From Chloroflexota bacterium (GTDB lineage: Bacteria > Chloroflexota > Dehalococcoidia > Lucifugimonadales > UBA3495): 64,000 bases of DNA. The translations under genes were made by a program, and so were the position numbers. Below the pieces are notes generated by a model, which was not told the origin of the DNA, searched no databases, and was given only the letters and a program-made list of their open reading frames with translations. Location: assembly GCA_009840165.1 (NCBI GenBank), contig VXOG01000104.1, positions 1 to 64,000 on the forward strand. Direction: 5' to 3'. Of this stretch, positions 30,612 to 40,088 are shown in pieces. How positions within the stretch are numbered: the stretch's first letter is position 1; each line of letters opens with the position of its first letter.

Positions 30612-31109
30612 ATGAGCCTTCCAAATGGTGAGCGGGACCCCTGGGAACTGCGGACAGGCATCCTCAACATTCCAACCAGGTTGATCCGGTGGTTCTCAGC
30701 CATCTTCACCGCAGCCTGGCTTATACTTACCGCCGTAACAAGCTATAACAGCGCCAACGCCCAGGTTGGAGCGAGTTGGGATAGCCTGATCGTAGGGATC
30801 GTCAATGCTGGCGCGCCCAACATTGGTTTAGCCCTGCCGACCGCGTACATCTTGACGGAGGTAATCGACATGGTATTGGGGGCATGGTACCGCCAACGGA
30901 CTCGCGCGCGGGCGCGCGAGGAGGGGCTTGAGGAAGGCCGCAAAGAGGGCCGCAAAGAAGGCCGAGAAGAGGGCCATCAGCAAGGTATGCTGGAACAGCA
31001 GGAACGCTGGCTACAGTGGCTTGAACGACGACGCGCGGCTGAGTCGAACGGTGCGCCTTTTGATGAGCCGCCGCCCGACTTGAATGGAGAACATCCGACA
31101 CAGGAGTAA
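30612..31109 (+). CDS. Small membrane protein with charged EGRKEG tail
   Basis: A 165-residue protein with two predicted transmembrane stretches (about 28-46 and 62-95) and a long hydrophilic C-terminal helix. The helix carries EGRKEGRKEGREEGHQQG from a 12-base tandem repeat, then Q/E/R-rich sequence and a Pro-rich end. GTG at 30609 precedes the ATG. EGRKEG tracts are known as flexible charged helices in other proteins, but no domain is recognised. It sits 3 bases before the CoA-transferase ATG, so it is probably co-transcribed. Confidence 0.6.
   Translation: MSLPNGERDPWELRTGILNIPTRLIRWFSAIFTAAWLILTAVTSYNSANAQVGASWDSLIVGIVNAGAPNIGLALPTAYILTEVIDMVLGAWYRQRTRARAREEGLEEGRKEGRKEGREEGHQQGMLEQQERWLQWLERRRAAESNGAPFDEPPPDLNGEHPTQE
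30936..30971. repeat. Three 12-base tandem repeats encoding EGRK units
   Basis: Units of the pattern GGCCGCAAAGAG are repeated three times with point changes inside the C-terminal tail of the small membrane protein gene. A GC-rich perfect palindrome (CTCGCGCGC with GG loop) lies just upstream near 30901. Confidence 0.8.
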
Positions 31110-31113
31110 AACG

Positions 31114-33399
31114 ATGACGACCAACGGAACCTCCGGGGCTTTGCGCGACATTCACGTGGTGGAGTTCGGGCAGTATGTCCCTGGCCCCATGCTTGGGATG
31201 CTGCTGGCCGACCAGGGAGCGCACGTAATCAAGGTGGAACAGCCCGGCGGAGATCCGGCGCGGTCTGAGCCGGCATTCGCCACCTGGAACCGGGGTAAGC
31301 GCTCGGTCACTCTCGATTTGAAAACTGCCTCCGGCCGCGAAAACGCGCAAAAACTGGTGGCCAACGCCGATGTGGTGATCGAGAACTTCCGTCCCGGCGT
31401 CGCCGACCGGCTGGGCATCGGGTATGCTGAGCTTGCGGCCAGCAATCCCGGCCTCATCTATTGCTCCTTGCCGGGCTACGGCGAAGAGCACCCCAGCCGA
31501 AATGAACCCGGTTGGGACCCGGTAATCAGCGCGGAGACCGGCTTCTACCCGGAAACCGGAGAGAGCGGCGGCGAACCTCTTTTCACGCCGCTGCCGATCG
31601 CCAGCACGTTTTCGGCGTTGCTCGGCTCGGTTTCCGTGGGAATGGCGATCAATGCGCGAGACAAGTCCGGCCAGGGTCAGCGCATCGAGGTGCCGCTGCA
31701 TTCGGCCATGTTCACCGCCATGGGCAGCCGCATCATCAAGTTCAACAACTATGAGTACGTTGACCTGTTCGACTTCCCTCGCACCGTTATGTCGCATCCC
31801 TACCAGTGCGCCGACGGCCGGTGGGTATATCACCACGGCATGTTCGAGCGTTTCGCGCGCCAGACGCTGACGGCGGCCGGCCGCACCGATTGGATCGACG
31901 AAGTAACGTCGCTGTTCGGGCGACCGGTTGACCCTGAGACGCTGGAGTTCTGGCAGGAACGGTTCGCCGAGATGTTCCGCGAGCGAACCGCCTGGCAGTG
32001 GGAGACCGACATCAACGCCCAGGGCGGCGCCTGCACCGTATGCAAGACCGTGGACGAATGGCTGGTACACGAGCACGCGGTTTCGGCCAAGATGGTCGTC
32101 GAAGTGGACGATGCCGAACACGGCACGATGAAACAACCCGGCGTCCAGGTGCGCCTGCGCGGCACGCCCGGCGCGATACAAGGCCGCGCTCCCAAGCTGG
32201 GCGAGCACACCGACGAGGTGCTGGCGGAACTGGAAGCCGCCCCGGCCCAGCCAAAAGCCGGCAATGGCAGCAGCGGCGACGTTATGTCCGCCTTGCAGGG
32301 CGTGCGCGTCCTAGACCTGTGCATAATCCTGGCCGGCCCCACCTGCGGGCGCACCCTGGGCGAGTTCGGCGCGGACGTGATCAAGATTGATGACCCGACG
32401 CGAATCCTCGATCCTATCGGCTATATCGACGTGAATCGCGGCAAGCGCAGCATCATGCTGAACCTTAAAACCGAGGAAGGCCGGGGCGTATTCTGGAAGC
32501 TGGTCGAATCTGCCGATGTTATCGTAGAAAACAACCGCAAATCCGCGGTGGAGCGCCTGGGACTTGGCTACGAAGCGGTCAAAAAGGTCAAGCCGGACAT
32601 CGTGTACGCTTCGCTGAACGCCTTTGGCTACGATGGCCCGTGGTCGGAACGGGCCGGCTGGGAACAGTTGGCGCAGGGCACCAGCGGGATGCAGGTGCGC
32701 CGCGGTGGTCGGAATGGCAAGCCTATGCTCGCGCCTTACGCCGTGAACGACTACGGCACCGGCCTCATGGGAGCCTACGCTGTTGCGTTGGCGTTGCACG
32801 AACGCAACCGCACCGGCAAGGGCCAGTCGGTGGACAGCGGCCTCGCGCTGACCGCCGGTATCCTACAATCGCCCTACTTCCTGGATTATGAGGGCTACGA
32901 GCGGGAAGACATCGAAGGTGTGGACGCACGCGGCTACTCCGTTCGTTCGAGCTTGTACCAGGCATCCGACGGATGGCTGTACATCCACTGTCCGGACACG
33001 GCCACCTATGGGGCGCTGCTGTCGGCTCTGAACTTCAGGGACATCCACGACAACGGCGACGCCATCGCGGACGCCATCCGCGCCAATACCGTCGAACACT
33101 GGATGCAGGAGTTGCGGCCGCTGGGCGTGTCGGTCACCCCCAACATGACTATGGAGGACTACCGCAACGACCCGGTAGTACGCAACGCCGGCTTCGTCGT
33201 AACACGAGACCATCACGGTTGGGGCAGTGTTGACCACTCCGGCACCACCGCCAGGCTCTCCGCAACGCCGCCGCGCCTCGGACCTCCGGCCCCGTATTTC
33301 GGGATGCACACGGACGAGATTCTCGCTGAGGCCGGCTACTCACCGTCGGAGATCGAAGCTTTGAAAGCATCAGGAGCGGCCGTCGCGCCCGGTCTGTAG
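31114..33399 (+). CDS. Fused double CaiB/BaiF family CoA-transferase
   Basis: A 761-residue protein from ATG 31114 (CAGGAG upstream) with two complete class III CoA-transferase modules, about 1-385 and 395-761. Each begins with a V-L/V-E-F/D-L segment and an F-G-A-D-V/A-H-V-I-K motif. The second has PYAVNDYGTGLMGAYAVALALHERNRTGKGQSV with the catalytic Asp of the DxxTG motif. At the corresponding position of the first the sequence is PLPIASTFSALLG, lacking that Asp. The fused pair may be a pseudo-heterodimer with one active site. Acyl donor and acceptor unknown. Confidence 0.9.
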   Translation: MTTNGTSGALRDIHVVEFGQYVPGPMLGMLLADQGAHVIKVEQPGGDPARSEPAFATWNRGKRSVTLDLKTASGRENAQKLVANADVVIENFRPGVADRLGIGYAELAASNPGLIYCSLPGYGEEHPSRNEPGWDPVISAETGFYPETGESGGEPLFTPLPIASTFSALLGSVSVGMAINARDKSGQGQRIEVPLHSAMFTAMGSRIIKFNNYEYVDLFDFPRTVMSHPYQCADGRWVYHHGMFERFARQTLTAAGRTDWIDEVTSLFGRPVDPETLEFWQERFAEMFRERTAWQWETDINAQGGACTVCKTVDEWLVHEHAVSAKMVVEVDDAEHGTMKQPGVQVRLRGTPGAIQGRAPKLGEHTDEVLAELEAAPAQPKAGNGSSGDVMSALQGVRVLDLCIILAGPTCGRTLGEFGADVIKIDDPTRILDPIGYIDVNRGKRSIMLNLKTEEGRGVFWKLVESADVIVENNRKSAVERLGLGYEAVKKVKPDIVYASLNAFGYDGPWSERAGWEQLAQGTSGMQVRRGGRNGKPMLAPYAVNDYGTGLMGAYAVALALHERNRTGKGQSVDSGLALTAGILQSPYFLDYEGYEREDIEGVDARGYSVRSSLYQASDGWLYIHCPDTATYGALLSALNFRDIHDNGDAIADAIRANTVEHWMQELRPLGVSVTPNMTMEDYRNDPVVRNAGFVVTRDHHGWGSVDHSGTTARLSATPPRLGPPAPYFGMHTDEILAEAGYSPSEIEALKASGAAVAPGL

Positions 33400-33452: not shown

Positions 33453-33544
33453 AAGTTTCCAGCAGTGCCGTCTCGCCGTGCGGATGCAAAGGAACGTGGG
33501 CCATGCTAAACTTGCGCCATCTCGCACCTGGCGGAGGTGGCGGC

Positions 33545-35755
33545 GTGCTAAGCATCTACAACACCCTGACGAAAACCGTCGAAGAGATTCGACCCATTGT
33601 GCCGGGCCGCGTCACCATGTACACCTGCGGGCCTACGGTGTACCGCTATGCCCACATCGGCAACCTGCGCACCTACTTGATGGCCGACTGGATCCGTCGC
33701 ATCCTGGAAGCCGACGGCAACGAGGTGTACCACATCAAGAACATCACCGATGTGGGACACATGCGGCAGGAACTGGCCGAGGCCGGCGGCGACAAGATGA
33801 TCATGGCCGCGCTGGCCGAGGGCAAGTCCTTGCAGGAAATCGGCGAGTTCTACGCCGATTGGTTCTGGAAGGACGAGGAACGCACTAACATCAAGCCGGC
33901 CCACGTTTTCCCTTGGGCGTCACACCACATCCCCGAAATGCTGGCTATGGTGAACACGCTGGTGAACAACGGCAAGGCTTACGAGGCCGGCGGCAACATC
34001 TACTTCGACGTTAACAGTTATCCCGAGTACGGCAAGCTGTCCCGAAACTTCGGCGGCGACCTCCTGGAGGGCGTTCGCGCCGAGGCCGATCCCCTCAAGC
34101 ACGACGCCAGGGACTTCACCTTGTGGAAAGCCGCTGAGCCGGGTCGCGACGTGAAGTGGGACAGCCCGTGGGGCGAAGGCTTCCCAGGCTGGCACATCGA
34201 ATGCTCCGCCATGGCCCACAGATACCTGGGCGAGCATTTTGACATACACACCGGCGGCGTTGACAACGTTTTTCCGCATCACGAAGATGAGATTGCCCAG
34301 AGCGAAGGGACGTTCGGCCAACAGCACGTGAACTACTGGGTACACGGGCAGCATCTGCTGGCCGATGGCGCCAAGATGGCCAAATCCGCCGGCAATGTCT
34401 TCCTGATTGAGGACCTGGTGGTTCGCGGATTCGACCCGCTGGCATTCCGTTACCTGTGCATGACGGTGCGTTACCGCCACCGGATGAACTTCACCTTCAC
34501 CTCGCTCAGGGCGGCGGAAAAGGCGTTGACCGGCCTTCGGAATCGCCTTTGGGTCTGGCGCAACGCCTCCGGCAACGGCTCAGGCCAGCACACCCTCAGC
34601 AGCGATGCCGAAGTCTGGCGCAAGCGTTTCTGGGATGCCGTGCATAACGACCTCGACCTGCCCAACGCGGTGGCGATCACCTGGGCAATGGCCAGGTCGG
34701 AACTGGCTCCGGGCGACAAGGTGGATCTGCTCCTGGAGTTTGACCGGGTGTTTGGCCTGGACCTTGACCAAGTTCCGATGCGCTACGAGATCGGTTCGGC
34801 CAACAGCGAAGCGATCACGAGAAGGACCTCGCTGCGGGAGCAGTCGGCCTATTCCGATGCGGACGCCATGCGAGCGGAGATTATTGCCAACGGCATGGTG
34901 GTCGAGGACGTGGGTAACGCAACGAGAGTGCGCCCGCAAACGGCCCTGGAATTGCAGTCGGCGCGCTGGGCCTCGGTCTCGGCGTCGCGCGAGGTCCCCG
35001 CATTGTTGGGAGAACCCGACCTCTACGACTTCACGTTCCTGCTGAACGCCTACGACTACGTCGATGACGTCCAGCGTTGCGTCGAAGCGGTGATGAAGCA
35101 TACGAGCGGCGCGTCAGCCGAAATGATCGTGGTGGACAACGGGTCCACCGACGGCACCGCAGAGTATTTGGAACAGGCCCAGGGCGAGCACGCCAACCTG
35201 CGGGTTATCCACTGCGACCACGTGGTTGGGGACGCTGCCGGCAAGAATATCGGCCTCAAACAGGCCCGGGGCAAGTACATCGTTCTGCTGGACGCATCCA
35301 CGGAGGTCGTGGGCGATGTGATGTCTCCGGTAGCGGAACAGTTGTCAGATTCCACCGTCGGCGTGTTTGGGCCCTACGGTCTCACTACCGACGACATGCA
35401 GCACTTCCACGAAGAAGTGGACCGGGGTGAAGCCGACGCCATGCAAGCCTACTGCATGGCTTTCCGGCGTGCCGACCTGCGCTCGGTTGGCCTGATGCAC
35501 GAATCGTTCCGGTTCTATCGCAACCTGGATATCGACTACTGCTTCCAGTTCAAAAACGCCGGCTACCGCGTGGTGTGCGACAGCAGCCTGCCGTTGGTGC
35601 GCCACGAACACCGCCAGTGGGAAGAGCTGGAGGAAAACCAGCGCGACGAGCTAAGCCGCAAAAACTTCGGTCGCTTCCTCAAGCGCTGGGGCAACCGCCC
35701 CGACCTCCTCATCAACCCGTCTGCGCGAGGTTTCGACACGGGATTCCGGCACTGA
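33545..35755 (+). CDS. cysS: Cysteinyl-tRNA synthetase fused to a family-2 glycosyltransferase
   Basis: GTG at 33545 with GGAGG 7 bases upstream gives 736 residues. Residues 1-462 are a complete CysRS: HIGN (HIGH motif) in YRYAHIGNLR, KMAKS-type KMSKS in GAKMAKSAGN, zinc ligands Cys in YTCGPTVY, Cys in WHIECSAM and His/Glu in FPHHEDE. The usual GI.leD... tail ends near 462. After a short linker, residues about 495-736 are a GT2-like domain: FTFLLNAYDY, VDNGSTDGT (about 530-538), GKNIGLKQARGKYIVLLDAS (DxS in place of DxD, about 582) and YCFQFKNAGYRVVCDS. Both reading frames are continuous. Confidence 0.88.
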   Translation: MLSIYNTLTKTVEEIRPIVPGRVTMYTCGPTVYRYAHIGNLRTYLMADWIRRILEADGNEVYHIKNITDVGHMRQELAEAGGDKMIMAALAEGKSLQEIGEFYADWFWKDEERTNIKPAHVFPWASHHIPEMLAMVNTLVNNGKAYEAGGNIYFDVNSYPEYGKLSRNFGGDLLEGVRAEADPLKHDARDFTLWKAAEPGRDVKWDSPWGEGFPGWHIECSAMAHRYLGEHFDIHTGGVDNVFPHHEDEIAQSEGTFGQQHVNYWVHGQHLLADGAKMAKSAGNVFLIEDLVVRGFDPLAFRYLCMTVRYRHRMNFTFTSLRAAEKALTGLRNRLWVWRNASGNGSGQHTLSSDAEVWRKRFWDAVHNDLDLPNAVAITWAMARSELAPGDKVDLLLEFDRVFGLDLDQVPMRYEIGSANSEAITRRTSLREQSAYSDADAMRAEIIANGMVVEDVGNATRVRPQTALELQSARWASVSASREVPALLGEPDLYDFTFLLNAYDYVDDVQRCVEAVMKHTSGASAEMIVVDNGSTDGTAEYLEQAQGEHANLRVIHCDHVVGDAAGKNIGLKQARGKYIVLLDASTEVVGDVMSPVAEQLSDSTVGVFGPYGLTTDDMQHFHEEVDRGEADAMQAYCMAFRRADLRSVGLMHESFRFYRNLDIDYCFQFKNAGYRVVCDSSLPLVRHEHRQWEELEENQRDELSRKNFGRFLKRWGNRPDLLINPSARGFDTGFRH

Positions 35756-38651: not shown

Positions 38652-40088
38652 AGGGTAGTGTCAACGATGAATTAGGCTGCCCGCGCTGTCCAGTTGGCGA
38701 CCGGCATCTCAACCTTCATCTCCCTCATCCCGGCGTAATCACCGTCAAGCAGACGGCCCAACATGGTTCCCGTGTACGTCAAGAGCGACAAGCCGACGTG
38801 CAGCCGGACCTTCTTGATGCCCAGGTAGCAGTGCTGATCTAGCAGGCGGCTGCGCTTGAGGCTGCCGAACAGCCGCTCAACGCTGGTCCGCTGCTTGTAC
38901 AGCCGCTTCCACCGCTTGCTCGCCCGTGGCAGCAGGCCCACCCGCCGGAGGAGTTCGCCGTCCCAGCCCTCGTAGTGTTCGCTACCGCAGCGTTCGCCGA
39001 GCCAGGGCTTGCTGCCTTTCAGTTCGCAGCCGTCGGCAGGGCAGCGGAAGAGGTGGCCCTTGCCCTTGTCAGTGCGAACGTACTCCATCGGCTGGCCGCC
39101 GATGCACTTGGGTTCTCCTTTGGGAGTGTAGAGACCGTTTTTGTCGGTGTCGCGTACCTGTATCACGGCGAATATGCGGTGTTGGTGGAGGTCCTGAAAA
39201 TTGCTGAGCGCGTCGTACCCCCGGTCGGCCATCGCGTAGCGTACCGGCAGCTTGGGGTGGTTCCTTTTGAGCTGGTCCATCATCGGCGGCAGCGTCGGGC
39301 TGTCGTTCATGTTGGCGGGCAGCACGGCCCACGACAGCGGCGTACCGTAGTAGGCATCGCATATCGCGTGGAGTTTGTACCCGTAGAATAGTTCGTCGCC
39401 CTCGTGCGCCAGTTTCGCGGTCCGGTGGCCCCATTCAGCCTCTCGGTCGATCCGCTTCGCTGGCTCTCGCTTCCCGTTACCCCACGCCTCAACGTCGCTG
39501 CTGTCGATGGCGACCATCCGGCCCGGCGCAGGGGCGCTCTCCGGCACCACGCCCTCATCCTGCAACCGCTCGATCTCCGCGCCGACACGCTGGGCAACGT
39601 CCATGATCGCCGCGTCAACGAGGTCCTTATGATCTGCCAGCCTCGCGTAGAAGCGTGAGAACGTGCCTTCGTGCGGCACGGTGTCCCTTAAACCACAAAC
39701 CCGCCTGAGAAGGCGGGATGCTTTGAGTTGGGCTATCAGGTCGCGGGTGTACCGTAACTTGAGCAGGTACCTCACCAGCGTTGCCCGCCACATGACTTCG
39801 GGCGCGTAGCCGGGCCGTCCGGTCCAGCGGTAGTCGTTCAGCTTGGCAATCAGTTCGTCGTGGTGCAGTTCGTCGAGGATAGTCCCAATCAGGCCAAAAT
39901 CGGGAACGCCTGGATCGCCCCGTTGACGATCCGCCGGCGGCGGCATTATATTGAGCATGACCGTGCTCCGTTCGACTGGTGAGCGGTCTGCCGCCTTCGA
40001 GATTAGGCCCTCGTTGGCGGCGTTCTTTATGTTGGCTTGATTGTAAGACCTCGCTCAGGGGCAGGGCAACGGTTGTCAACCCCAACCC
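38652..40088 (-). mobile_element. Insertion sequence carrying an IS4/IS5-type transposase
   Basis: A single DDE transposase gene occupies most of the span. Imperfect inverted similarity between GGGTAGTGTCAACGATG near 38653-38669 and the reverse of AACGGTTGTCAACCCCAACCC near 40068-40088 suggests the element ends, but they are diverged and no target duplication is apparent. The ends are approximate. The transposase frame is intact, so the element could still move. Confidence 0.5.
38672..39958 (-). CDS. DDE transposase (IS4/IS5/IS1182-like)
   Basis: A 428-residue transposase of the DDE_Tnp_1 type. Residues 1-130 form the N-terminal helical domain (DUF772-like, VRYLLKLRYTRDLI). The catalytic Asp residues lie in MVAIDSSDVEAWG (about 147-159) and MADRGYDAL (about 243-251), and the Glu in RTSVERLFGSLKRSR (about 364-378). 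A Cys-rich segment at about 309-330 (CPADGC, C) resembles the zinc insert seen in IS1182-like transposases. No frameshift. It is adjacent to an unusual tRNA and small orphan genes, marking an accessory patch. Confidence 0.9.
   Translation of the reverse strand: MLNIMPPPADRQRGDPGVPDFGLIGTILDELHHDELIAKLNDYRWTGRPGYAPEVMWRATLVRYLLKLRYTRDLIAQLKASRLLRRVCGLRDTVPHEGTFSRFYARLADHKDLVDAAIMDVAQRVGAEIERLQDEGVVPESAPAPGRMVAIDSSDVEAWGNGKREPAKRIDREAEWGHRTAKLAHEGDELFYGYKLHAICDAYYGTPLSWAVLPANMNDSPTLPPMMDQLKRNHPKLPVRYAMADRGYDALSNFQDLHQHRIFAVIQVRDTDKNGLYTPKGEPKCIGGQPMEYVRTDKGKGHLFRCPADGCELKGSKPWLGERCGSEHYEGWDGELLRRVGLLPRASKRWKRLYKQRTSVERLFGSLKRSRLLDQHCYLGIKKVRLHVGLSLLTYTGTMLGRLLDGDYAGMREMKVEMPVANWTARAA

Follow-up and report, generated by a model that had tools for sequence, protein, structure and literature searches.

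In a 2022 review of duplicated aminoacyl-tRNA synthetases, only CysRS* and MshC appear as paralogues of cysteinyl-tRNA synthetase (CysRS) with a known function (PMC9437257). MshC (TIGR03447; 3c8z, 8hfm) shares the CysRS-derived fold and is found beside the housekeeping enzyme, but carries neither an anticodon domain nor a glycosyltransferase (GT). An extra synthetase is joined to a second enzyme in LysX of Mycobacterium tuberculosis, a LysRS-MprF fusion that passes its amino acid to lipid (PMC9437257), and synthetase-like enzymes or GTs—Glu-Q-RS (YadB) and the animal QTGAL/QTMAN—decorate the anticodon of specific tRNAs, acting on queuosine at position 34 (Q34). Here, we describe a gene in which a CysRS that, unlike MshC, keeps its anticodon domain is followed in the same frame by a family 2 GT (GT2), so that, unlike in LysX, the added enzyme is a predicted sugar transferase at the anticodon-binding end. 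The gene lies in a 64,000-nucleotide stretch of a Chloroflexota bacterium (GenBank assembly GCA_009840165.1, contig VXOG01000104.1, positions 1 to 64,000 of the forward strand; hereafter, the window). We propose, at somewhat less than even likelihood, that its GT half is a tRNA-directed glycosyltransferase that modifies tRNA-Cys near the anticodon, and that its CysRS half is a second copy of the synthetase, probably active.

The fused gene occupies one unbroken open reading frame (ORF) of the window, free of stops from 33503 to 35755 on the plus strand. Its likely start is GTG 33545, directly 5′ of which we found a Shine-Dalgarno-like GGAGG (33533-33537), as judged from spacing only. The resulting 736-residue protein comprises, in this order, a CysRS catalytic core, a helical bundle, the anticodon-binding module CysS_C, a linker, and a GT-A/GT2 domain:

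33533..33537, plus strand: Shine-Dalgarno-like GGAGG (sequence, spacing)
33545..35755, plus strand: whole fused gene, 736 amino acids, GTG to stop (one open frame)
33545..34564, plus strand: CysRS catalytic core, residues 1-340, with zinc ligands, HIGN, and KMAKS (PF01406 at 320.8 bits, conserved residues, 1u0b alignment)
34565..34789, plus strand: CysRS helical bundle, residues 341-415 (model secondary structure, structural alignment)
34790..34939, plus strand: CysS_C anticodon-binding module, residues 416-465 (profile, residue conservation)
34940..35020, plus strand: short linker, residues 466-492, with a helix and an ordered loop predicted (model; predicted local distance difference test [pLDDT] about 85-92)
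35021..35752, plus strand: GT2-like GT-A glycosyltransferase domain, residues 493-736 (PF00535, alignments, model, fold matches)

For the helical bundle, DALR_2 stayed below threshold in a Pfam search of the window protein. An AlphaFold2 model of the fused protein, built with 64 orthologues, reached a pLDDT of 86 and a predicted template modelling score of 0.84. Its residues 1-465 align with residues 1-461 of the tRNA-bound E. coli CysRS 1u0b (Z 46.9, 443 aligned, 2.8 Å); because of this match, the GT can be seen to continue directly from the anticodon-binding end, and the initial annotation, which had placed the end of the CysRS near residue 462, proved accurate in this boundary as well as in its gene coordinates.

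The fusion is old and maintained. We counted more than 120 distinct one-frame CysRS-GT fusions across Chloroflexota, the public genomes compared being mostly metagenome-assembled. Having searched relatives for the same two-domain order, we recovered it from 35 of 36 genomes of the same family (the exception is 73% complete) and from 11 of another 24 genomes belonging to the order, amounting to 46 of 60 relatives overall. It also occurs in 42 of the 393 genomes of the class, nearly always as one open frame, and in other classes of the phylum; only a few matches among relatives and class genomes contain an in-frame stop. Within the genus, orthologues are 81-95% identical. CysRS and GT lie within one ORF on all 80 named contigs fetched (SAR202, Dehalococcoidia, and others), including single-contig chromosomes labelled ‘chromosome: 1’ and the SAR202 single-cell genome AG-426-M11, and an assembly join or a chance event is therefore rejected. 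By taxonomy, the named relatives (best 80 of 173) are all Chloroflexota, and the plasmid matches to the GT, among the matches listed, are generic GT2 proteins of less than 30% identity. A family trait, which the initial annotation had offered as one possibility, is thus what we see, albeit spread wider than suggested, over several classes of Chloroflexota. The contrary prospect that relatives would always encode the two domains as separate genes did not materialize, although solo GT2 genes do exist.

It is these solo genes that point to what the GT is paired with. Across the phylum, our search recovered numerous GT relatives whose frames span only about 300-345 amino acids; we term solo GTs those GT2 homologues that are devoid of a CysRS catalytic domain. 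In 17 of 17 complete solo loci from other Chloroflexota (a contig-edge fragment, L155, was left out), the roughly 50-residue CysS_C (PF23493) stands directly N-terminal to the GT2. Throughout 25 whole genomes, every PF23493 match above the cut-off belonged to a CysRS or to one of these GT2 proteins; a few partial matches elsewhere stayed below it. In the E. coli CysRS:tRNA-Cys complex 1U0B, G34 is hydrogen-bonded by R427 and D436 and stacked by W432, and R423 reaches it through water (PMC12684709). In the window protein, the positions of E. coli R423, R427, W432, and D436 are occupied by R427, R431, Y436, and D440, respectively. Scored as the pattern R...R....[aromatic]...D..[R/K] (R423/R427/aromatic-432/D436 in E. 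coli numbers), this G34-contact set is intact in 17/17 solo GTs and in 122/126 fused proteins. It is likewise kept by nearly all full-length CysRSs and, among the unfused type II CysRSs, by 12 of 13 rows, the thirteenth being a fragment; together with CysS_C, it is absent from nine of nine MshC-like CysRS paralogues.

Since the anticodon-contact residues are kept in GTs that have no charging domain, tRNA binding is best explained as part of the GT's job. A module of predicted tRNA-binding type is attached to the GT in all 17 sampled solo forms as well as in the fused forms, and anticodon binding of tRNA-Cys by CysS_C-GT2 is, on the strength of these alignments, well supported. The constant unit is a predicted anticodon reader plus a glycosyltransferase, and the comparisons show the GT's conserved partner to be the anticodon-binding module of CysRS, not cysteine activation. 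In two genera (L173, L174), a solo GT is convergent to a fused-type CysRS gene, about 20 bases apart—another sign of GT-CysRS linkage. Solo GTs may have arisen by loss of the CysRS core or may be ancestral: solo and fused GTs intermix in the GT tree, where a single clade of fused members was not rejected (approximately unbiased test, p-AU 0.198), our trees being quick or weakly supported.

That a GT2-like domain follows in the CysRS frame was also confirmed. The window protein matches PF00535 with 64.9 bits (cut-off 23.3) over residues 502-611, the GT2 domain proper spanning about residues 493-722, and the domain modelled alone adopts a GT-A fold (pLDDT 91.6) whose nearest solved match is GalNAc-T2 (Z about 21), with WrtF and chondroitin polymerase also recovered and Z about 20 for GT-A enzymes; the GT-A/GT2 assignment rests on this profile and this fold, and the window protein has both. 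With these GT2/GT27 enzymes it shares the GT-A fold, an NGSTD-type motif, and an Asp at the DxD place; it differs from them by family-specific RFYR..D and H.H..W motifs, by the N-terminal tRNA-anticodon module, and by DxS for DxD. The canonical DxD is replaced by D583-A-S585, in which the first Asp is invariant and the second is Ser in most members. DxD is typical of GT-A enzymes, not required, and because GalNAc-Ts use DxH, the motif does not decide membership. Among 64 sequences, 37 of 230 GT positions are nearly invariant; D583, S585, E587, R656-F-Y-R659, D662, and H689 are invariant in the alignment, as are D631A, S704, and N707, along with a DA...Y motif. This pattern argues for strong constraint on the GT domain, which is likely active.

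The CysRS half appears equally complete, in line with the initial annotation. It scores 407 bits against TIGR00435 (cut-off 340) and 321 bits against PF01406, and HIGN, KMAKS, and the four zinc ligands C28/C209/H234/E238 (E. coli numbers) are kept across 81-82 fused relatives, as are the residues of the anticodon domain. The window protein accordingly has the HIGH/KMSKS-type motifs and zinc ligands of a class I CysRS as well as the C-terminal anticodon-binding module with its G34 contacts. In a quick tree, built from a short search with seven fused rows, the fused CysRSs form one clade (SH-like approximate likelihood ratio test [SH-aLRT] 98) inside the type II group, which also contains Borrelia CysRS and stand-alone CysRSs of Ktedonobacteria-like genomes; the usual partner CysRS in SAR202 genomes is type I. 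Type II CysRS (Borrelia/Treponema-like; PRK14536, 3sp1) has the same core, zinc site, NITDVGH..GGDK insertion, and anticodon-binding C-terminus, whereas the fused protein bears GT2 at its C-terminus and has a further CysRS beside it in the genome. In genomes G750 and G687, type II was the only full-length CysRS found, arguing that type II is a working synthetase type and that the fused CysRS half is therefore probably active in aminoacylation. The Ktedonobacteria-like genomes at loci L199, L201, L206, and L209 carry a Borrelia-like type II stand-alone CysRS in place of the usual type I.

The window's own genome also encodes a stand-alone CysRS (G000:C49), 38% identical to the fused CysRS over the aligned part, and a single, normal tRNA-Cys gene (anticodon GCA, U73, A37); no odd tRNA-Cys gene was found in this genome. 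A CysRS is consequently available to this genome even without the fused copy. Of 25 fusion-bearing genomes checked, 24 had another full-length CysRS; the remaining one is 88% complete. Two further observations concern such genes: a 5.7-kb contig of a relative holds a third, divergent CysRS (L115 121-1812, G012:C25; possibly contamination), and a tRNA-like gene of the window's genome (G000:C57:9852-9922, L390), to which ARAGORN assigned an anticodon of four bases (gaga), may be a pseudogene or an odd tRNA.

Our proposal builds on what the sequences show: a conserved fusion, CysRS and anticodon-contact residues that remain intact, a CysS_C-GT2 pairing that is constant, and a stand-alone CysRS in the same genomes. 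From these, we infer aminoacylation by the fused copy, the transfer of a sugar, its donor, tRNA as its acceptor with the position modified there, and a physiological role. CysS_C would grip the anticodon of tRNA-Cys through the G34 contacts, the tRNA being held as by any CysRS. The GT-A domain, beginning about 30 residues after the anticodon module, would then take a sugar from a nucleotide-sugar and attach it to the bound tRNA, the anticodon stem-loop being the most likely place. In the fused form, the CysRS half could charge the same tRNA molecule, coupling charging to glycosylation. The modification might serve decoding of Cys codons, protect the anticodon from nucleases, or divert tRNA-Cys. 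Glu-Q-RS sets a precedent for anticodon modification by a synthetase-like enzyme (reviewed in PMC9437257). MiaA, whose A36-A37-A38 target sequence is present in tRNA-Cys, was found in 18 of 18 genomes checked.

Several observations weigh against this proposal. At the DxD place, Ser replaces the second Asp (D583-A-S585), and some fused members (L103-L106) have a degraded NGSTDGT stretch, implying either a different use of donors or potentially weak activity. The nearest structures are GT-A enzymes that glycosylate proteins and glycans; a nucleic-acid-modifying GT was not among the fold-search matches of the GT model, an absence that proves nothing. Part of the G34-contact set is missing from four of 126 fused proteins, the CysS_C modules of solo GTs score near the Pfam cut-off, and that of the window protein reaches only 18.6 bits.

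The fold similarity to GalNAc-T2 and WrtF, which act on proteins and glycans, would suit a scenario in which CysS_C was co-opted as a protein or ribosome handle, the acceptor of the GT2 is a protein or a glycan of the envelope, and the CysRS half is a passenger. We consider this unlikely, given that the exact G34-contact residues persist in every one of the 17 solo GTs and that no wall gene cluster surrounds the fused gene. Also improbable is a sensor or regulator whose GT2 binds a nucleotide-sugar and mainly tunes tRNA-Cys charging, thereby linking envelope sugar supply to translation: the change to DxS, the variable NGSTD motif of some members, and the attachment of GT2 to an apparently active CysRS would fit such a role, but solo CysS_C-GT2 genes have no catalytic CysRS to tune and many active site-like positions of the GT are invariant. 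Cys S-linked glycosylation by GT2 enzymes is known from glycocins, and both halves of the fused protein look complete, so the CysRS might charge the tRNA and the GT2 glycosylate the thiol, yielding S-glycosyl-Cys-tRNA for a peptide or metabolite. Yet the GT is joined on where the anticodon is bound, a long way from the CCA end, and solo GTs keep the anticodon module without a charging domain, which leaves this route quite unlikely.

The initial annotation had raised a link between thiol metabolism and sugar transfer, which our results do not support. In its most concrete form, the GT would make a glycoside to which a CysRS-like ligase adds cysteine, giving a mycothiol-like low-molecular-weight thiol; MshC is indeed a CysRS relative, and in L165 and L166 the solo GT has a short MshC-like gene at a distance of about 6-8 kb. 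We disfavour this reading as very unlikely. The fused protein scores 214.9 bits against the MshC equivalog TIGR03447 (cut-off 485.1), retains the anticodon domain that MshC has lost, and groups in the quick tree with type II CysRS, outside the MshC-like clade, so that an identity as MshC is rejected; moreover, separate MshC-like genes coexist with the fusion in G503, G582, G695, and G084. As an observation in its own right, many Chloroflexota harbor a short (about 395-420 amino acids) MshC-like CysRS homologue without CysS_C (L165 2243-3559, L166 18730-19998, L290-L299, L307). Where scored, it reaches 338-375 bits, below the MshC cut-off of 485, and may represent a cysteine ligase yet to be named, perhaps one that serves a thiol cofactor. 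Queuosine glycosylation is likewise disfavoured and the least probable of all: Q34-glycosylating GTs of the QTGAL/QTMAN type exist in animals (PMC12518689), and Tgt was found in 14 of 18 genomes checked, but tRNA-Cys (GCA) is not a Q tRNA, CysS_C-GT2 differs from these enzymes and from Glu-Q-RS in having a CysRS anticodon module, and it occurs where no Tgt was detected, namely in G049 (fused GT, 96% complete) and G660 (solo GT, 93% complete).

As for genomic context, we found no conserved operon with wall, sugar, or thiol genes around the fused gene, as expected for a translation or tRNA-modification gene. Its neighbours vary by family (pyruvate kinase, MATE, chaperonin, E1 dehydrogenase, carboxyltransferase, M3 peptidase) and hence indicate no pathway. 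In the window, a 771-amino-acid ORF upstream (31084-33399, plus strand) resembles, by eye, two tandem family III CoA-transferase domains, and some of the fetched loci have a homologue of it close to the fused gene. About 3 kb downstream (38672-39958, minus strand) is a transposase-like ORF, of DDE/IS type by eye.

In open-licence papers, our literature search turned up no account of a glycosyltransferase fused to a CysRS or to CysS_C, in agreement with the initial annotation, which knew of no CysRS with such a partner. The CysRS-GT fusion thereby brings a further partner to the few CysRS-derived proteins listed so far. To our knowledge, the only established sugar-modified tRNA nucleosides are those of animal queuosine and, in the initiator tRNA of eukaryotes, one with a ribosyl mark; there is a real chance that we are dealing with a tRNA modification enzyme of a new class. 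More tentatively still, Chloroflexota may possess a bacterial family of tRNA glycosyltransferases in which a CysRS anticodon module picks tRNA-Cys for a sugar unrelated to queuosine, often coupled to cysteinylation in one polypeptide. With its GT permanently attached to an anticodon reader, the protein suggests that a phylum abundant in marine, sponge, and soil habitats has a tRNA modification so far unrecognised, for which tRNA-Cys is a concrete candidate substrate.
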